From Streptomyces sp. NBC_00285 (GTDB lineage Bacteria > Actinomycetota > Actinomycetes > Streptomycetales > Streptomycetaceae), in assembly GCF_036174265.1 (NCBI RefSeq), contig NZ_CP108055.1, forward strand, positions 5,704,001 to 5,768,000: DNA of 64,000 nucleotides, written 5' to 3'. The position numbers and the translations under genes are program-made. Shown here in pieces: positions 40,807 through 48,063 of this stretch (position 1 is the first letter of the stretch; every line of letters begins with the position of its first letter). A model generated the notes under the pieces. The model saw only the letters and a program-made list of their open reading frames with translations. It had not been told where the DNA came from and ran no database searches.

Positions 40807-41739
40807 TCACGCTCCTTCCTGGGCCCACTCGACGGGCCCCTGGTACGGGAAGAACCGCTCCGCGACCGCCTCCGCGGAGGCCATGCAGGCGGTCTGCAGG
40901 TCACCCAGCAGAAGGGGGAGTTGATCCTCCAGGGCGTGCAGGTCGAGGTATTCGAGACGGGTGCGCATCCGGCCGATCGGGCGGCGCGCGGGGTCCTGGC
41001 GGGGGCGGCCGAGCGCGGTCAGGCACTCCTCGGCCGTGGTCAGCGCGTGCAGCGCGGAGCGCGGGAAGTCCCGGTCCAGGAGCAGGAACTCGGCCACGCG
41101 CGGGGTGTCGCCGAAACCGCTGTACACGCGTGCGTACGCCTCGTCGGCGCCCGAAGCGCTCAGCAGGGTCGGCCAGTCGGGCGCGTGGTCCGCGTCCAGG
41201 ACCCGGACCGACAGCAGCCGCACGGTCATGTCCACCCGTTCCAGGCTCCGGCCGAGCACCACGAAACGCCAGCTGTCGTCGCGGCTCATGGTGGAGTCGG
41301 TGAGCCCGAAGAAGAGCGCCGAGCGGCGCCGTACGAGCTCCAGATAGGCGTAGGGGCCCGTACGGCGGGCCGCGAGGCGCTGGTCGGCGAGGGCGTGCCA
41401 GGTGGAGTTCAGGCACTCCCACATCTCCGAGGAGACCGCCTCACGGGCACTGCGCGCGTTGAGCCGGGCCGCGCCGAGCGCGCCCTCGATGGAGCAGGTC
41501 GAGCGGGCGTCGAAGGCGAGCTGGTCGAGGACCTGCTGCATGTCCACGCGGGTGCCGCCCGCGTCGACGCCGAGGATCGCGTACAGCGACCGGCAGGCCA
41601 CGTCCTGGTCGCGCCAGGGGTCCTCCAGCATCCGGTGGAGGTAGGCGTCGAGGATCCGGCCCGTGGCGTCCGCCCGCTCGACGTACCGGCCGGTCCAGAT
41701 GAGTGCCTCGGCTATCCGGGAGAGGATCACGTCGTTCAC
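40807..41739 (-). CDS. Alpha-E domain protein
   Basis: 310 residues, nearly all helical, starting LSRIAEALIWTGRYVERADA and containing YLHRMLEDPWRDQDVACRSL and FGLTDSTMSRDDSWRFVVLG, hallmarks of the alpha-E family. Its biochemical role is unproven; it almost always accompanies circularly permuted ATP-grasp proteins and transglutaminases. It overlaps the upstream ATP-grasp gene by four bases and is followed at once by the transglutaminase. Confidence 0.88.
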   Translation of the reverse strand: MNDVILSRIAEALIWTGRYVERADATGRILDAYLHRMLEDPWRDQDVACRSLYAILGVDAGGTRVDMQQVLDQLAFDARSTCSIEGALGAARLNARSAREAVSSEMWECLNSTWHALADQRLAARRTGPYAYLELVRRRSALFFGLTDSTMSRDDSWRFVVLGRSLERVDMTVRLLSVRVLDADHAPDWPTLLSASGADEAYARVYSGFGDTPRVAEFLLLDRDFPRSALHALTTAEECLTALGRPRQDPARRPIGRMRTRLEYLDLHALEDQLPLLLGDLQTACMASAEAVAERFFPYQGPVEWAQEGA

Positions 41740-43280
41740 TGCTGCTGCGCCCCTTCCTGCGCGACGGTGGGGGTGCCGTCTGGACCGTGCTGACGTGGGG
41801 CGATGTCGAAGCGGGCGGTCCCGTTCGCGGGCGTGGGCGGCTCGGCGGGGCCCTCGGCGAGCACCCAGGTGTCCTTGGAGCCGCCGCCCTGGCTGGAGTT
41901 GACGATCAGGTTGCCCTCCTGGAGGGCGACCCGGGTCAGGCCGCCGGGCAGCACCCAGATGTCGTTGCCGTCGTTGACGGCGAAGGGGCGCAGGTCGATG
42001 TGGCGGGGTGCCATGTGGTCACCCGCGAGGGTGGGGGAGGTGGACAGGGCGACCGGGCGCTGGGCGATGAAGCCGCGGGGGTCGGCCCTGACCGCTTTCC
42101 GGGTGCGTTCCAGGGTCTCGCGGTCGGCCTTGGGCCCGATGACGATGCCCTGGCCGCCGGATCCGTCGACGGGTTTCACGACGAGCTGGTCGATCTGGTC
42201 CAGGACGGCCTCCAACTGCCCCGGCTCGTCGGGCCGGAAGGACTCCACGTTGGGAAGAATCGGTTCCTCGGAGAGGTAGTAGCGGATCAGGTCCGGGACG
42301 TAGGTGTAGAGCAGCTTGTCGTCCGCGATGCCGTTGCCGACCGCGTTGGCGAGGGTGACGTGGCCCGCCGTGGCCGCGCTCATGATGCCCGGGCAGCCGA
42401 TCACCGAGTCGGGCCGGAAGTGCAGCGGATCGAGGAAGTCGTCGTCCAGGCGCCGGTATACGACATGGACGGGCACCTCGCCGCGCGTGGTCCGCATCCA
42501 CACCCGGTTGGTGCGGCACACCAGGTCGTGCCCCTCGACCAGCTGTACGCCCATCAGCCGGGCCAGCAGCGCGTGTTCGAAGTAGGCGGCGTTGCTGGGC
42601 CCGGGGGTGAGGACGACGACCCGGGGATCCTTCACTCCGTCGGGGGCGGCGGCGCGCAGGGCCGCGAGCAGCTTCTGCGCGTATCCGTCGACGGGGACCA
42701 CATGCTGTTCGGCGAACAGGGACGGGAAGACGCGGGTCATCGCGCGCCGGTTCTCGATGACGTACGACACGCCGCTGGGAACACGGACGTTGTCCTCCAG
42801 GACCCGGAAGTCGCCCTGTTCGTCGCGTACGAGGTCGATGCCGGCGACATGGATGCGCACGGAGTTGACCGGTTCGATCCCGTGGGCGGCCCGGTGGAAG
42901 TGCGGGGAGCTCAGGAGCAGCCGCCAGGGCACCACGCCGTCCTCGAAGGCCCGGGCGTGACCGTAGGCGTCGGCGAGGTAGGCCTCCAGGGCCCTGACCC
43001 GCTGAGCGACTCCCCGTTGGATGAGATCCCATTCGAGAGCGTCGAGGATCCTCGGCACCAGGTCCAGCGGCCAGGGCCGCTCCTCGCCCGCGAAGGCGTA
43101 GGTCACACCCCTGTCGGTGAACGCCCGTGCCATCTGGTCGGCCCGGAACCTGAGTTCACTCGGTTCGATCGGCTGGAGTGCGGCCAGCACCGGCTCGTAG
43201 GCGGTCCTGACCTCACCCGGCCGCTCGAACATCTCGTCCCACGCGTCGGCCAACGCGTATGCGTCAAATATGTCCGCCAT
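41736..43280 (-). CDS. Circularly permuted ATP-grasp protein
   Basis: 514 residues from ATG 43280 (MADIFDAYALADAWDEMFER). Features of this family are VRIHVAGIDLVRDEQGDFRV then LEDNVRVPSGVSYVIENRRA, DLVCRTNRVWMRTTRGEVPV, and PVDGSGGQGIVIGPKADRET, the glycine-rich ATP loop, followed by ALSTSPTLAGDHMAPRHIDL. It is a predicted peptide or amide ligase. First gene of the operon with alpha-E and transglutaminase genes; promoter in the 307-bp gap 43281-43588, where no other gene is evident. Confidence 0.9.
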   Translation of the reverse strand: MADIFDAYALADAWDEMFERPGEVRTAYEPVLAALQPIEPSELRFRADQMARAFTDRGVTYAFAGEERPWPLDLVPRILDALEWDLIQRGVAQRVRALEAYLADAYGHARAFEDGVVPWRLLLSSPHFHRAAHGIEPVNSVRIHVAGIDLVRDEQGDFRVLEDNVRVPSGVSYVIENRRAMTRVFPSLFAEQHVVPVDGYAQKLLAALRAAAPDGVKDPRVVVLTPGPSNAAYFEHALLARLMGVQLVEGHDLVCRTNRVWMRTTRGEVPVHVVYRRLDDDFLDPLHFRPDSVIGCPGIMSAATAGHVTLANAVGNGIADDKLLYTYVPDLIRYYLSEEPILPNVESFRPDEPGQLEAVLDQIDQLVVKPVDGSGGQGIVIGPKADRETLERTRKAVRADPRGFIAQRPVALSTSPTLAGDHMAPRHIDLRPFAVNDGNDIWVLPGGLTRVALQEGNLIVNSSQGGGSKDTWVLAEGPAEPPTPANGTARFDIAPRQHGPDGTPTVAQEGAQQQ

Positions 43281-43588: not shown

Positions 43589-44620
43589 ATGGCCGGGTAC
43601 ACGGCGGACGACCATCCACACGGCGCTGACCGGCTGTGCGAAGCCGGGGACCACGTGTACTCCCGGGCGGTACGGCGCGGCCGGGTGCCGCGCTCCGACG
43701 CCGAACCGGTGCCCTGCCTGCTGGAGCTGGCCCTGCTGCACCCGGACCCCGACGACATGGACTGGCTGGTGCCGACGGCACCGCAGGAGGTCATGACCCG
43801 GCTGCTGCGCGGGGTCTACGACGACGTCAGCGCGAGCCAGCGACGGGTCGGGGCGGTGGTCGCCGCGGTGGAGCGGTTCGCCGGGCTCGGGCCCAGTGTC
43901 GTCGCGGGCGCCGGCGAGGGCACCGCGATCCGCGTCCTGGACGGCCTCTCCCGGATCCAGGCCGCGATGGACGAGGCGACCGAGGCGTGCACGACCGAGG
44001 TCCTCACCGTGCAGCCCGGCGGCATCCGCCCCGAGCACGAGCTGACCGAGGGCCTGCACCGGGCGCTGGCGCTGCGCGGCCGGGGCGTACGCATGCGGGA
44101 CCTCTACACACATGTGGCACGGCACGGCCAGGGACTGCTCAACTACCTTGAACTGATGGGCGGTTCGGTCCAGGCCCGCACCCTCGACGAGGTCATCGAC
44201 CGGCTGATCCTCTTCGACCGCACGGTCGCCTTCGTCCCCGCGAACGCCGACCGCACCCTCGCGCTGGAGCTGCGGCACCCGGCGCTGGTGGAGTACCTGG
44301 TGACGGTCTTCGAGCGGCTGTGGCGCCTGGCGATCCCGCTGACGGCCCCCCTTCCCGACACCGGCATCGAGGGCATCTCCCATCGCGAACAGTCCATCGC
44401 GGCCCTGCTCGCGGAGGGCCACCAGGACGCGGTGATCGCGGAGCGCCTGGGGATAAGCGTGCGCACCTGCCGGGCCCACATCGCGCGGCTGTCGGAGACG
44501 CTGGGGGCGGCCAGCCGTACCCAGCTGGGCGTCCGGATAGCGCAGGTGGGCCTGGACCGCAGCCCGGCCTCCGTCCCCTCCGTCACGCTCCCCGGTCAAG
44601 AATCCCGGACTGCGCGATGA
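43589..44620 (+). CDS. LuxR-type transcriptional regulator, paralogue 1
   Basis: 343 residues from ATG 43589 (GTG 43577 is possible). The C-terminal 60 form a LuxR helix-turn-helix: REQSIAALLAEGHQDAVIAE then RLGISVRTCRAHIARLSETL. The N-terminal 270 are a shared sensor-like region with CLLELALLHPDPDDMDWLVP, RVLDGLSRIQAAMDEATEAC, and ELRHPALVEYLVTVFERLWR. No receiver domain or known ligand motif is seen. It is convergent with paralogue 2 and overlaps it by 38 bp. One of three related genes beside a small peptide gene. Confidence 0.88.
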   Translation: MAGYTADDHPHGADRLCEAGDHVYSRAVRRGRVPRSDAEPVPCLLELALLHPDPDDMDWLVPTAPQEVMTRLLRGVYDDVSASQRRVGAVVAAVERFAGLGPSVVAGAGEGTAIRVLDGLSRIQAAMDEATEACTTEVLTVQPGGIRPEHELTEGLHRALALRGRGVRMRDLYTHVARHGQGLLNYLELMGGSVQARTLDEVIDRLILFDRTVAFVPANADRTLALELRHPALVEYLVTVFERLWRLAIPLTAPLPDTGIEGISHREQSIAALLAEGHQDAVIAERLGISVRTCRAHIARLSETLGAASRTQLGVRIAQVGLDRSPASVPSVTLPGQESRTAR

Positions 44621-45572
44621 GGTAGCCGAGCTGGGCGCGGCTCTCGCTGCCGAGGGTGGCGGCGAGTTTGGCGATGTGGACGCGGGCGGTGCGGATGTTC
44701 ATGCCGAGCCGGTCGGCGATCACGGCGTCGGTGTGGCCCTCGACGAGGAGGGCGGCGATGGCTTGTTGGCGGGGGGTGATGCCGTTGCGGGTGGGCTGGT
44801 GCACGGCCTCGGGGTGCATCGGGGTGGCCAGCCGCCACAGCCGGTCGAAGGTCGTGACGAAGAAGGTGGTCAGGGCCGGGTGGCGCACCTCCAGGGCGAG
44901 GCTGCGGTCCTTGTTGGCGGGGATGAAGGCCACGGTCCGGTCCACGATGATCAGGCGTTCCGTCACCTCGTCCAGGGACCGGGCCTCCACGTCGCCGTGC
45001 AGGCGCTCGTAGCGGGCCACGACGCTGGGCGCGTGGCGCAGGGTGTGCTGGTAGAGCGTGCGGATACGGCCGCCCCGGGCCAGCAGGTCCTGGTCGCGGT
45101 CGAACGCCTCCACATGCACGGACGGGGGCGGCTGGGCGTGTCTGTCGCTGGTGTTCGGCTGGATGGACAGCAGCTCGGAGCCGGCGGCCACGGCCTGGCC
45201 GATGACCCGGCCGATGAGGTCGATCCCGCTGAGGACGCTGATCATCGACGAGTCCTCGGCTCCCGTGCGACGGCCCTCGATCCGCATGAGGGGCTCGAAC
45301 GTCTCGGCCAGCAGGGCCTCACGCCGCCGTTCCTCCGCGACACGCTCCTCCGCGATCCGCAGCATGCGGTGCAGGGCGACGACCGGGGCGACCGGTTCCA
45401 GCCGGTCCGGGTCCGTGACGGCGGGATGCAGGAGCCCGAAGTCGAGCAGGCAGGGCGCCGCGCCGGCTTCGACGCCGAGCACGTACCCCTCGCGCAGGGC
45501 GCGCGCGTACAGCTCCGTCCCTGCCGCGCACAGGTTCTCCACGCCGTGCTCCGGATGTGGCACCGGGTTCAC
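44583..45572 (-). CDS. LuxR-type transcriptional regulator, paralogue 2
   Basis: 329 residues, GTG start. It shows the same arrangement as its neighbours: PCLLDFGLLHPAVTDPDRLE, GGRIRTLYQHTLRHAPSVVA, TVAFIPANKDRSLALEVRHP, and HTH RQQAIAALLVEGHTDAVIAD with RLGMNIRTARVHIAKLAATL. The ending LIAQSGILDRGA is nearly identical to paralogue 3 (LIAQSGILDQGH), so these two duplicated more recently. It converges with paralogue 1. Ligand unknown. Confidence 0.87.
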   Translation of the reverse strand: MNPVPHPEHGVENLCAAGTELYARALREGYVLGVEAGAAPCLLDFGLLHPAVTDPDRLEPVAPVVALHRMLRIAEERVAEERRREALLAETFEPLMRIEGRRTGAEDSSMISVLSGIDLIGRVIGQAVAAGSELLSIQPNTSDRHAQPPPSVHVEAFDRDQDLLARGGRIRTLYQHTLRHAPSVVARYERLHGDVEARSLDEVTERLIIVDRTVAFIPANKDRSLALEVRHPALTTFFVTTFDRLWRLATPMHPEAVHQPTRNGITPRQQAIAALLVEGHTDAVIADRLGMNIRTARVHIAKLAATLGSESRAQLGYLIAQSGILDRGA

Positions 45573-45853
45573 CCGGTCACTCCCTCCCGCTCAAGGACTC
45601 CTGGTTCCGCTGTGCGGCGGCCGCCCGCCGCGGCGGCACACCCCGGCATCGCCCCCTCGTGCGGCTCAGGGCGCCGACGGACGGCTGGTCGGCGGTGGCC
45701 GAGGGGGCGGCTGCGCCCGGGCCGCAGGCGGCGTTTCCCGGCCGTGGCCCGCTCATCGCCGTCGGCCGCTCCTCGTGGCGGGGTCCGTCCGCGTCCCCGG
45801 CACCCGGCCGCCGCTTTTCGCGCGGCGCGCGGGTGCGTATGTCCAGGCCTCCC

Positions 45854-46894
45854 TCACGGGTGCCCGTCCCCCTGCGCCGCCGCGTGCCCCTGGTCGAGGA
45901 TCCCCGACTGGGCGATGAGGAAGCCGAGCTGAGCGCGGCTGCCGCTGCCCAGGGCCGTCGCGAGCTTGGCGATGTGGGCGCGGCAGGTGCGCACGTTCAT
46001 GCCCAGCCGCCGGGCGATCGCCTCGTCCACGTGCCCCTCGACGAGGAGCTTGGCAATGGAGTGCTGGATGTCGGTGATGCCGTCCGGCGCGGTCTCGTAG
46101 GGAGCGCCGGCGCTCAGCGGGACCGCCCGGCTCCACATGAACTCGAAGACCTTGGTCAGGTAGCTGACCAGTCCCGGGTGCCGGAGCTCCAGCGCGACCT
46201 GCCGGTCGTCCCGGACGGGTATGAAGGCCACGGTCTCGTCGCAGATGATGAGCCGCTCCACCAGCTCGTCGATCGTGCGGTACTCCACCTTCCCGTCGGC
46301 GAACTGTTCCATGTAGGCCAGCCGCTCGGGGCTGTACCGGGCGACGTGCTGGTACAGCGTCCGGATCCGGACGCCCCGGTCTATGAGAGTCCGGTCGCGC
46401 TCCAGCCCCTCGATGAGCCGATTGTCGGGGCGGCGGCCGCGGCTCGGCTGGACGGTGAGCACCTCGGACTGGCACTGGGACGTCGCCAGGTCGAGCGCGG
46501 CGTTGATCCGGTCGAGCCCCTCCAGAACCGTGATCGAGTGCGCCGGCGCCATCTGCTGAGCGCTGAGCGCCATGAACGGCTCGAAGGAGTCCGCGAGCTC
46601 GATCGACAGCCGTCTGCGCTCGGTGATCTCGTGTTCGAGGGGATTGAGCCGCTGAGCCAGCGCGACCGAAGGCGGAACCGGAAGCATCCAGTTCGCGTCG
46701 TCCGGGTCGGGGTGCAGCAGAGCGAACTCCAGCAGGCAGGGAATCGACTCCGCGTCCCCACGGGAGACCCGTCCTGTGCGCAGCGCGGTGGCGTAAAGAC
46801 GGCCGCCTTCGTCACACAGTTCGGTCACCGCGTGGGGATGTGTCGCGTTAGTCCCATTCGATACCAAATTTCCACCCCCCAGGGTCCTGAACAT
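45854..46894 (-). CDS. LuxR-type transcriptional regulator, paralogue 3, divergent from peptide gene
   Basis: Up to 346 residues. PCLLEFALLHPDPDDANWML, ITVLEGLDRINAALDLATSQ, GVRIRTLYQHVARYSPERLA, and HTH IQHSIAKLLVEGHVDEAIAR then RLGMNVRTCRAHIAKLATAL. ATG 46894 has no ribosome-binding site; TTG 46867 has GGGGGTGGAAA upstream and matches the starts of the paralogues, so it may be the real start. It is divergent from the exported peptide at 46981, with only 86 bp between them, the expected place for it to act as regulator of the peptide gene. Confidence 0.86.
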   Translation of the reverse strand: MFRTLGGGNLVSNGTNATHPHAVTELCDEGGRLYATALRTGRVSRGDAESIPCLLEFALLHPDPDDANWMLPVPPSVALAQRLNPLEHEITERRRLSIELADSFEPFMALSAQQMAPAHSITVLEGLDRINAALDLATSQCQSEVLTVQPSRGRRPDNRLIEGLERDRTLIDRGVRIRTLYQHVARYSPERLAYMEQFADGKVEYRTIDELVERLIICDETVAFIPVRDDRQVALELRHPGLVSYLTKVFEFMWSRAVPLSAGAPYETAPDGITDIQHSIAKLLVEGHVDEAIARRLGMNVRTCRAHIAKLATALGSGSRAQLGFLIAQSGILDQGHAAAQGDGHP

Positions 46895-46980
46895 GCAGGA
46901 ACATGATGCACCGTTCGTGTGGCCATGATGTGCCCGAATGAGCCATCGTCTTACTCGACGGGGGAAGAGGGGACCTTCAA

Positions 46981-47184
46981 GTGAGGACGAAGCCGACTAT
47001 GCGTAACAAAATGCTTCGCTCGGTGCTTGTCGCCGCCTTCTCTACCGTTGTGGCCTTCGGCGCACTGGCCGGCCTCTCCGGCGTGAAGGGCGACGTTCAC
47101 AGAGCAGGCGGTGCCGAGGCTGCGGACACCGTGGTTGTCGGCGAAGAGGTGCAGGCATTCCCTGCTGACACCGTCTGGGACTGA
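46981..47184 (+). CDS. Small exported peptide next to LuxR regulators
   Basis: 67 residues from GTG 46981. A signal-like N-terminus, MRTKPTMRNKMLRSVLVAAF then STVVAFGALAGLSG, is followed by an acidic tail of about 30 residues, with the sequence ADTVVVGEEV and the end FPADTVWD. The repeated DTV-V/W element (residues 49-52 and 63-65) and the C-terminal Trp-Asp stand out. No known bacteriocin or lantipeptide leader was recognised. The stop is one base before the next gene, so the two are co-translated. It could be a signalling peptide for the adjacent regulators. Confidence 0.65.
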   Translation: MRTKPTMRNKMLRSVLVAAFSTVVAFGALAGLSGVKGDVHRAGGAEAADTVVVGEEVQAFPADTVWD

Positions 47185-47185
47185 C

Positions 47186-47521
47186 ATGACTACTCCACCT
47201 GACGACCGCTCCTTTCGCAGGGAGATGGCCACCGCCTACCGATCCGGCTGGCACTTCATCGATCTGGTCACCGCGATCCCCCACACCGGTGACTCGTTGA
47301 TGGTGACGGTCTTCGGTGAACCGGTGGTCGTCACGCGGGACGACGACGAGGACGTGCGGGCGTACCGGTGTCTGCGGCGGCCTCGGGGGGCGCCGCAGCC
47401 TGTCCGGTGTGCCATCCGGTACGGAATGATCTTTGTGAACCTGGACCAACGAGACCATCGGCTGGTGGAACCGGAAACCCCCACCCCCCGGACCATCTCA
47501 GCCACCCCCCGCAGTGCCTGA
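47186..47521 (+). CDS. Rieske-fold-like small protein lacking histidine ligands
   Basis: 111 residues. GWHFIDLVTAIPHTGDSLMV, TVFGEPVVVTRDDDEDVRAY and RYGMIFVNLD correspond to the Rieske domain of ring-hydroxylating oxygenases. The cluster ligands would be C62-x-H64 and C75-x-x-H78; both cysteines are present, but both His positions are Arg (CLR and CAIR). A 2Fe-2S cluster of Rieske type is therefore not expected. It may bind metal or partner proteins differently. It starts one base after the peptide stop and is followed by a strong terminator. Confidence 0.68.
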   Translation: MTTPPDDRSFRREMATAYRSGWHFIDLVTAIPHTGDSLMVTVFGEPVVVTRDDDEDVRAYRCLRRPRGAPQPVRCAIRYGMIFVNLDQRDHRLVEPETPTPRTISATPRSA

Positions 47522-47564
47522 CGCGATTCCCCCGACGTAACAGATCGCGCAGGTGCTTCCCCCC

Positions 47565-47605
47565 GCAGCGGCGTCACCGTGACCTGAACACGGTGACGCC
47601 GCTGC
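47565..47605 (+). terminator. Terminator after the peptide/Rieske-like pair
   Basis: A perfect 17-bp stem (GCAGCGGCGTCACCGTG with CACGGTGACGCCGCTGC), 7-base loop, followed by AGTTTTGG. One of the strongest intrinsic terminators of the window. Confidence 0.85.
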
Positions 47606-47649
47606 AGTTTTGGGCGACATTTACCGCCATGGGGTGATCGGGTCGCGGC

Positions 47650-48063
47650 TCAAGGGCGCCCCATCGCCCCGGTCAGCGAGATCTCGATGACCACCCGCAA
47701 CGGGTTCGGTGACGGCGTCCGCTCGTAGCGCTCGGCGTACCGCCGCTCCGCCTCCGCGACCCGCTCCGGTTCGTCACGGACGTACGCCCGCCCCTCCAGC
47801 GTCGCCCACCGCGGCCCCGCCACCTGGCACACCGCCACCGCCGCCCCGCCCTCGCCGGCCGCCAGCACGTGCCGTACCTTCGCGCTCGTCCGGCTCGCGA
47901 TCACCCGGGCGAGACCGGCCTCGGGGTCGTAGGTCACCCCGACGGGTACCACGTGCGGGCCGCCGTCCGGGCGGGGTGTGGTCAGCGTGCACAGATGCCG
48001 TTCCCGCCAGAAGCTGAGGAACGGCGCGTCCGGGGCACCCGGATCCTGGGCGTAGGAGGTCAT
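47650..48063 (-). CDS. PPOX-class (pyridoxamine-phosphate-oxidase-like) protein, probably F420/flavin-dependent
   Basis: 137 residues. FLSFWRERHLCTLTTPRPDG then GPHVVPVGVTYDPEAGLARV and VCQVAGPRWATLEGRAYVRD are the conserved blocks of this split-barrel family; PRWATLEG contacts the cofactor. Many actinobacterial members bind F420 rather than FMN; the choice is not certain here. Divergent from clpB, and the HspR operator lies between the two. Confidence 0.85.
   Translation of the reverse strand: MTSYAQDPGAPDAPFLSFWRERHLCTLTTPRPDGGPHVVPVGVTYDPEAGLARVIASRTSAKVRHVLAAGEGGAAVAVCQVAGPRWATLEGRAYVRDEPERVAEAERRYAERYERTPSPNPLRVVIEISLTGAMGRP

Follow-up and report, generated by a model that had tools for sequence, protein, structure and literature searches.

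A putative peptide quorum-sensing channel of Streptomyces, built on a four-residue word and a LuxR-type receptor

The locus that precedes clpB in the genome of Streptomyces sp. NBC_00285 probably encodes a peptide quorum-sensing channel, in which a pheromone with a tetrapeptide core would be exported, cut, re-imported and finally read, at a palindromic DNA site, by a LuxR-type regulator named here R3; we put the probability of this reading at about 0.78. The locus was analysed within a stretch of 64,000 nucleotides (contig NZ_CP108055.1, positions 5,704,001 to 5,768,000 of the forward strand, in a genome of 10.3 Mb), which we call the window and to which coordinates refer unless another locus is named. 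An earlier, sequence-only reading of these letters had suggested a peptide-based signalling system, and this suggestion is now strongly supported, both by the conservation of a word in the peptide precursor and by the covariation of R3 with that word. The elements of the locus are as follows:

43589-44620, plus strand: R1, LuxR-type regulator (Pfam matches, locus comparison)
44583-45572, minus strand: R2, LuxR-type paralogue that duplicates in tandem (Pfam matches, locus comparison)
45854-46894, minus strand: R3, the third paralogue, proposed pheromone receptor and transcription factor (covariation, fold matches)
46106-46552, minus strand: PLD/TrmB-like sensor of R3, residues 115-263 (fold matches, covariation)
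46460-46462 and 46394-46396, minus strand: putative R3 specificity residues 145 and 167, respectively (covariation)
46885-46900: palindrome TCCTG-N6-CAGGA, candidate R3 operator in the common R3/peptide promoter (105 of 121 loci)
46981-47184, plus strand: predicted pheromone precursor of 67 residues, with a conserved signal-like leader, a hypervariable linker and the C-terminal DTVW-D
47167-47178, plus strand: DTVW codons, proposed active core (word conservation)
47186-47521, plus strand: RSK, degenerate Rieske-like protein (Pfam match, alignment)
47565-47605, plus strand: hairpin with a 17-bp stem, ending the peptide-RSK unit (z -4.5)

A word in the precursor and its candidate receptor

The comparison rests on 121 loci, the window and 120 that were fetched. 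A first set of 60 was hand-picked from the better peptide matches of a search of 295 genomes, longer contigs being favoured, and a second set of 60 from RSK matches, 40 of them among the more diverged; some peptides of this second set escaped the automatic rule and were recovered by reading the gap between R3 and RSK. The precursors carry a word of the form (D/E/N)-x1-x2-W, in 1 to 10 copies, preceded by a leader that resembles, as judged by eye, a secretion signal. In the window precursor the word occurs once, as DTVW at residues 63-66, and an upstream DTVV could be a decayed copy. The C-terminus FPADTVWD, which had been singled out as unusual, is indeed there, but it proves to be one case of a word found across the genus and not a singular feature. 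Words were counted over 120 precursors (the 121st, at locus L164, joined later), and only open reading frames that began with a known leader start and contained the word at least once were accepted: 312 of the 314 tail tryptophans have D, E or N three residues before them. At each of the 121 loci a word-bearing frame separates R3 from RSK, a count that is partly made so by construction, the word being itself a criterion of acceptance. A second count, over the frames of the first set, was made without this condition, and there all 61 frames similar to the window peptide (window included) hold the word; the peptide is conserved where the regulators are.

Single-copy precursors number 33 of 120. 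The remaining 87 have several copies, and in 83 of these the middle pair is constant throughout the precursor, the others being those of loci L147, L149, L152 and L153, while 32 distinct middle pairs are found across species (TV, SS, ST, SG, PT, IG, IA and FG among them). Within a precursor the four word positions are identical at 100, 100, 98 and 100% (504 copy pairs), as against 28-58% in the flanks; between loci the middle two positions agree at 28 and 15% only. Because identical middle residues often differ in codon, in 171 of 502 pairs (34%) for one position and 215 of 496 (43%) for the other, the copies are not fresh duplications of DNA, and selection at the protein level maintains the word while its spacers drift.

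R3 follows the word. In a partial Mantel analysis given ClpB (66 loci, 300 permutations), distances between R3 sensors tracked word differences with a partial rho of 0.285 (0 of 300 permutations); the corresponding values were 0.061 for the PNPOx-like protein encoded downstream, which barely follows, 0.029 for the R1 sensor and -0.036 for RSK. A per-column analysis then covered 229 R3 columns in the 114 loci that were left once near-identical R3s had been removed. Column 145 was associated with x1 at a partial r of 0.81 and a z of 53, column 167 coming second (z 10) and every remaining column at 5.2 or less. The best x1 columns of the controls reached z 5.6 in R1, 6.4 in R2, 9.8 in RSK and 9.4 in ClpB, the R1, R2 and R3 sets having been thinned of near-identical rows, and the RSK and ClpB sets left unthinned. 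Residue 145 thus stands far above the background of shared ancestry, and residue 167, by itself, does not. The correspondence may be laid out as a code:

x1 Ser: M145/D167, 50/50 of the 114 loci, 52/52 over all 121
x1 Thr: V145/D167, 32/32 of the 114 loci, 35/35 over all 121
x1 Pro: L145 with V or M at 167, 11/11 (114 loci); one gap row over all 121
x1 Ile: V145 with G or A at 167, 11/11 (114 loci)
x1 Phe: A145/A167, 2/2 (114 loci)
x1 Leu and Val: mixed, 8 (114 loci)

These pairs look chemically sensible, a larger residue of the presumed pocket going with a smaller residue of the ligand, and alanine facing phenylalanine; Asp167 is confined, in the 114 loci, to words with a hydroxyl residue (Ser or Thr) at x1. 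The signal for x2 is more spread. Columns 191, 155, 163, 161 and 227 lead (z 12-15), z exceeds 5 in 22 columns of the sensor, 4 of the N-terminal part and 3 of the helix-turn-helix (HTH) domain, and Ser155 goes with Lys or Arg at x2 in 9 of 9 cases. Kinship was controlled with a tree built from clpB and RSK DNA, R3 and the peptide being left out, on which x1 must have changed at least 40 times and Ser/Thr at least 25 times. Contrasts were pairs on supported, non-overlapping paths, for traits chosen after the code table had been seen: Met or Val at 145 changed with Ser or Thr in 16 of 16 independent pairs (p 3e-5), while for Asp167 and Ser/Thr the figure was 6 of 6 (p 0.03), and for Ser155 and Lys/Arg at x2 it was 7 of 7 (p 0.02). 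A further set from named species, the best 80 of at least 456 loci, with species partly overlapping those of the first sets, gave 77 readable loci, in which Ser went with M145/D167 in 49 of 49, Thr with V145/D167 in 18 of 19 and Val with V145/S167 in 7 of 7.

It could be argued that R3 and the peptide gene, adjacent and divergent as they are, simply moved together between genomes, linkage and not molecular recognition making them agree; the N-terminal part and the HTH of R3 do follow the word weakly, as this would have it. Joint transfer would, however, lift the association all along R3, whereas that with x1 is concentrated in a single column, and it would not provide for pairs that are chemically complementary (S-M, T-V, F-A, with Asp167 restricted as described). 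We consider it very improbable. That R3 is the cognate receptor of the peptide is, by this covariation, strongly supported.

The conserved unit, its promoter and its other proteins

Three LuxR-type regulators, a 67-residue peptide and a Rieske-like gene had been described in the window, and all were found. Identity to R3 is 48% for R1 and likewise for R2, and the paralogues do have a sensor region in common, as had been said; R3 and the peptide gene are divergent, and RSK does start one base past the stop of the peptide gene. A PNPOx-like gene and then clpB follow 3' of RSK. As to conservation of the block, the check that had been proposed, the order of a divergent R3-like regulator, RSK and clpB is kept in 60 of 60 loci of the first set and 60 of 60 of the second, a plus-strand R1 being recognised in 60 and 24 of them, respectively. 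RSK was found in 245 of 291 Streptomyces genomes (E <= 1e-10), with matches confined to the range 1e-12 to 1e-17 in at least 5 of them. A sample taken across the order had it in 110 of 147 genomes (E <= 0.001), 3 of them with weak matches only, and in one of five genera. Among the 46 Streptomyces genomes without RSK, 20 named ones gave no peptide match better than E = 0.005, and plasmid copies of the peptide-RSK stretch were looked for with no match. Beside R1 the window holds a circularly permuted ATP-grasp gene and, just after it, a further open reading frame in the same direction (40807-43280). The ATP-grasp gene was considered as a member of the unit and set aside, as only 25 of 121 loci had a match to it within the flanks retrieved.

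The gap between R3 and the peptide gene contains a block whose columns are mostly conserved above 90%, and 105 of the 121 loci have TCCTG-N5/6-CAGGA at most 200 bp ahead of the precursor. In the window the palindrome overlaps the annotated ATG of R3. Because this ATG lies within a conserved promoter palindrome, the annotated start is doubtful, and the true one may be the TTG at 46867, nine codons inside; alternative starts of that kind are present in three relatives. A search for other R3 targets with the 23-base site found it once in the whole genome (up to 3 mismatches), at R3's own promoter, and R3 therefore looks like a local, self-regulating switch, the further outputs of which would pass through RSK, R1 and R2 or weaker sites. 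The strong terminator said to close the unit is seen in part: a hairpin with a 17-bp stem does close it (z -4.5), but its T-run is short and the scan for terminator patterns did not flag it. That scan found neither a sigma-70 promoter nor an intrinsic terminator pattern in 46700-47700.

As to R3 itself, its sensor (residues 115-263) alternates strands and helices and matches PLD and TrmB folds, while its HTH (269-336) matches NarL types; R1 and R2 pass the GerE cut-off of Pfam and R3 falls below it. R3 has no Pfam match to the N-terminal TrmB HTH, although its residues 21-261 align with TrmBL2. No TPR family appears among its Pfam matches or the fold matches listed, which excludes nothing; coverage of residues 1-110 is slight. 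None of R1, R2 and R3 has a Pfam match to an autoinducer-binding domain (E up to 10), and the genes mapped around the unit include no LuxI-type synthase, no genome-wide search having been made for one.

The paralogues R1 and R2 do not seem to read the species word. R1, tried in this role, has a sensor partial rho of 0.029 and a best x1 column of z 5.6, and 81 of 85 R1 proteins have V/A at the equivalents of 145 and 167, irrespective of x1; R2, tried likewise, reaches z 6.4 at best as against 53 in R3. R2 is present in 0, 1, 2, 3 or 4 copies in 49, 54, 15, 2 and 1 of the 121 loci. Its code positions are mostly L/D (51 of 100), a pair absent from all 121 R3 proteins, and its copies may respond to different words. 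R1 and R2 have the fold in common with R3, not the code; they may act as partners, read words of another kind or be regulators further downstream. Palindromes of another spacing than that of the R3 site, TCCTG-N3-CAGGA, were seen at 22 sites upstream of R2 and 17 elsewhere in the loci (L036-L198).

The Rieske-like protein was described as having arginine at both histidine-ligand positions, and this is so in 121 of 121 loci (R64 and R78). Its cysteine ligands are kept in 121 and 120 of 121, single homologues (P0093, P0117) losing a cysteine too, and the Rieske ligand set of two cysteines and two histidines is absent. The proposal of a role for RSK in maturing or binding the peptide finds no support where the species-specific part is concerned: the protein is highly conserved, its distances do not follow the word (partial rho -0.036), and its best column (z 9.8) is at about the level of the ClpB control (9.4), for which reason it was also dismissed as a reader of the species word. 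RSK could instead have the conserved leader as its target, or form an output of the circuit itself. Its last residues, ATPRSA (47501-47521), hardly vary and are joined on by a linker whose length does, as if they served as a tag for docking or degradation.

RSK also bears on the view that the product of the precursor is antimicrobial or has some other bioactivity, being a peptide of the kind that is ribosomally synthesised and post-translationally modified (RiPP), modified by the Rieske-like protein and sensed by R3 for self-regulation only. Leader, hypervariable linkers and multiple cores resemble those of multi-core RiPP precursors, and a Rieske-derived protein is encoded next door; yet this protein is without both histidine ligands at every locus and does not follow the two variable residues, and the constant unit consists of regulators, precursor and RSK with no other gene, enzymes encoded elsewhere in the genome not having been sought. 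We hold this view to be quite improbable.

Relatives of the receptor and links to physiology

The genome of the window has a further paralogue, R4, some 20 kb before the window (L282:1486-2511), with both a TrmB HTH and a LuxR HTH. Near it, the regulator being divergent, a secreted-like peptide of 69 residues (L282:3110-3319) ends in three DAGWQ words; relatives of this peptide (E <= 1e-13) occur in 3 of 61 Streptomyces genomes, its own included. A survey of R4-like loci, 30 in number and spread over 22 of 46 Streptomyces genomes, asked for a divergent, upstream, small secreted-like frame with a repeated xxxW or a tryptophan in the last five residues. Such a frame is present in 18 of the 30 loci (the rule having been fixed once these loci had already been inspected, and 3 of the 18 being near-orthologues that share DAGW), versus 51 of 3000 control stretches and 1 to 3 of 30 in the other three flank orientations. 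The words found there are DAGW, DMSW, SMGW, DMGW, DVTW, DLGW, SINW, VIGW, DLPW, NAQW, GNIW, GFSW and GLIW. In all three DAGW receptors the residue equivalent to R3-145 is Phe, which fits the size rule. Simple scans with crude criteria for such W peptides beside R4 relatives outside Streptomyces gave no convincing case.

In this survey, apparent further channels, with divergent secreted-like peptides beside R4-type regulators, stand at L322-L328, L331, L332, L335, L339, L342 and L345-L347; their words are DMSW, SMGW, DMGW, DVTW, DLGW, SINW (x2), VIGW (x5), GNIW, DLPW (x3), NAQW, GFSW and GLIW. At L343 and L344 a secreted-like peptide with two DFVW words is convergent, not divergent, to an R4-type regulator.

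As for S. coelicolor, SCO3666 and SCO3665 are listed at 394 and 327 amino acids in PMC3282765, and PMC2687793 has clpB as SCO3661, a heat-shock gene. At the S. violaceoruber locus (L071) R1 can be 394 and R2 327 residues long; by gene order and the lengths of neighbours, taken through this species, SCO3664 appears to be R3, SCO3665 R2 and SCO3666 R1. The word predicted for S. coelicolor, on the basis of S. violaceoruber, is DTIW. Mini-Tn5 insertions in SCO3664, named there as a "regulator", are among those that raise actinorhodin more than 50-fold (PMC6585502); a complementation plasmid is listed, and 12 of the 16 regulator mutants tested were restored.

The proposed circuit and its place among signalling systems

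We picture the circuit as follows. The precursor would be exported and cut to a short peptide holding the tetrapeptide, which would accumulate outside the cell until an oligopeptide permease takes it back up. It would then bind the PLD/TrmB-like sensor of cytoplasmic R3, which would act at TCCTG-N6-CAGGA between R3 and the precursor gene, with feedback on R3, precursor and RSK and with effects extending to antibiotic production.

The covariation would also fit if R3 read a word cut from the cell's own exported or stalled precursor, for instance as a report on secretion, proteolysis or the state of the envelope, with no communication between cells. The position of the locus, next to the heat-shock gene clpB in all 120 fetched loci, speaks for such a cell-autonomous sensor, as does the absence of an importer among the genes mapped in the locus. 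Yet 32 words and at least 25 Ser/Thr switches are what discrimination between partners gives, whereas an internal ligand has no evident reason to diverge, and we judge this alternative unlikely.

Several points weigh against a quorum-sensing channel read by R3. Export, uptake, mature form and peptide binding are all conjectured from sequence. The N-terminal part of R3 (rho 0.191) and its HTH (0.118) follow the word as well, more weakly, as linkage would give. Column 167, at z 10, is no higher than the best columns of RSK and ClpB and rests on the code table and the 6/6 pairs; in the R4 paralogues, moreover, the 167 rule fails, Asp or Asn standing there whatever the word (3 of 20 rows could not be extracted). 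The determinants of x2 are many, among them columns 276 (z 10) and 275 (z 9), which lie beyond the sensor, and Gly at x2 goes with T191 in 2.3 of 10 independent pairs only. One locus of Thr type, L238, has L145; 33 of the 120 precursors, having a single copy, give no test of concordance; the exact palindrome is missing in 16 of 121 loci, mostly diverged ones; and a single operator in the genome (up to 3 mismatches) does not account for how R3 would reach antibiotic genes. A final point concerns BldK, which, according to PMC9640686, imports a 655-Da peptide, for decades the presumed signal, different strains possibly using different peptides. No word-holding substring of the S. violaceoruber precursor, unmodified, falls between 650 and 660 Da; the linker fragment VAEVPAA (655.35), also considered, is one of three substrings in the 10-Da window and was taken as chance.

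In kind the proposed signal resembles that of BldK, as both involve an extracellular peptide and uptake by an oligopeptide permease (proposed here), and strains may differ in the BldK peptide as well (PMC9640686), the difference being that 655 Da fits no unmodified fragment holding the word.

Among other systems, a close parallel is offered by the RRNPP systems of Bacillota (Rap/Phr, PlcR/PapR, NprR/NprX, PrgX), which likewise have a small precursor with an export signal, a short signal, pherotypes and a receptor-regulator encoded beside the peptide gene, with uptake being proposed in our case. RRNPP receptors are TPR proteins, whereas R3 combines a PLD/TrmB-like sensor with a C-terminal LuxR/NarL HTH; the word is here repeated up to 10 times per precursor, and an acidic residue (or Asn) and Trp frame its two variable residues. 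Because its sensor matches another fold, we do not file the system under RRNPP. With archaeal TrmB and TrmBL2, R3 has in common the PLD-like sensor fold, differing in its HTH, which is of LuxR type and placed at the end, with no Pfam match to the N-terminal TrmB one, and in its proposed peptide ligand. Its C-terminal GerE/NarL-type HTH recalls LuxR solos and the LuxR receptors of acyl-homoserine lactones, yet the Pfam matches include no autoinducer-binding domain, and by domain content it is not one of these. Yeast alpha-factor also sets identical active words between variable spacers in one secreted precursor; ours is bacterial, with a core of four residues and a proposed cytoplasmic receptor. 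The open-licence literature of PubMed Central, to which the search was confined, subscription papers and preprints lying outside it, held no description of the system, and we know of no pheromone family that matches it in receptor fold, repeated precursor and framing of the word. As a principle, peptide quorum sensing is old.

Many of our antibiotics come from Streptomyces, among whose hormones small lactones are the best known. We incline to the view that these bacteria, and perhaps other Actinomycetota, also use a large family of peptide languages, made of four-residue words ending in W and LuxR-type receptors with TrmB/PLD sensors, mostly divergent, among which the channel at the clpB locus would be the widespread one, marking species through the 145/167 code and gating antibiotics, while DAGW, DMSW, DLGW, SINW, VIGW, GNIW and others would run in parallel. 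What the locus offers is a widespread channel in which a receptor is predicted, and a word for every species examined, with a code open to testing by synthetic tetrapeptides. And because the apparent receptor gene of S. coelicolor, SCO3664, is tied, by a published transposon screen, to a more than 50-fold change in actinorhodin, the signal could become a handle to wake or silence antibiotic clusters, species by species.

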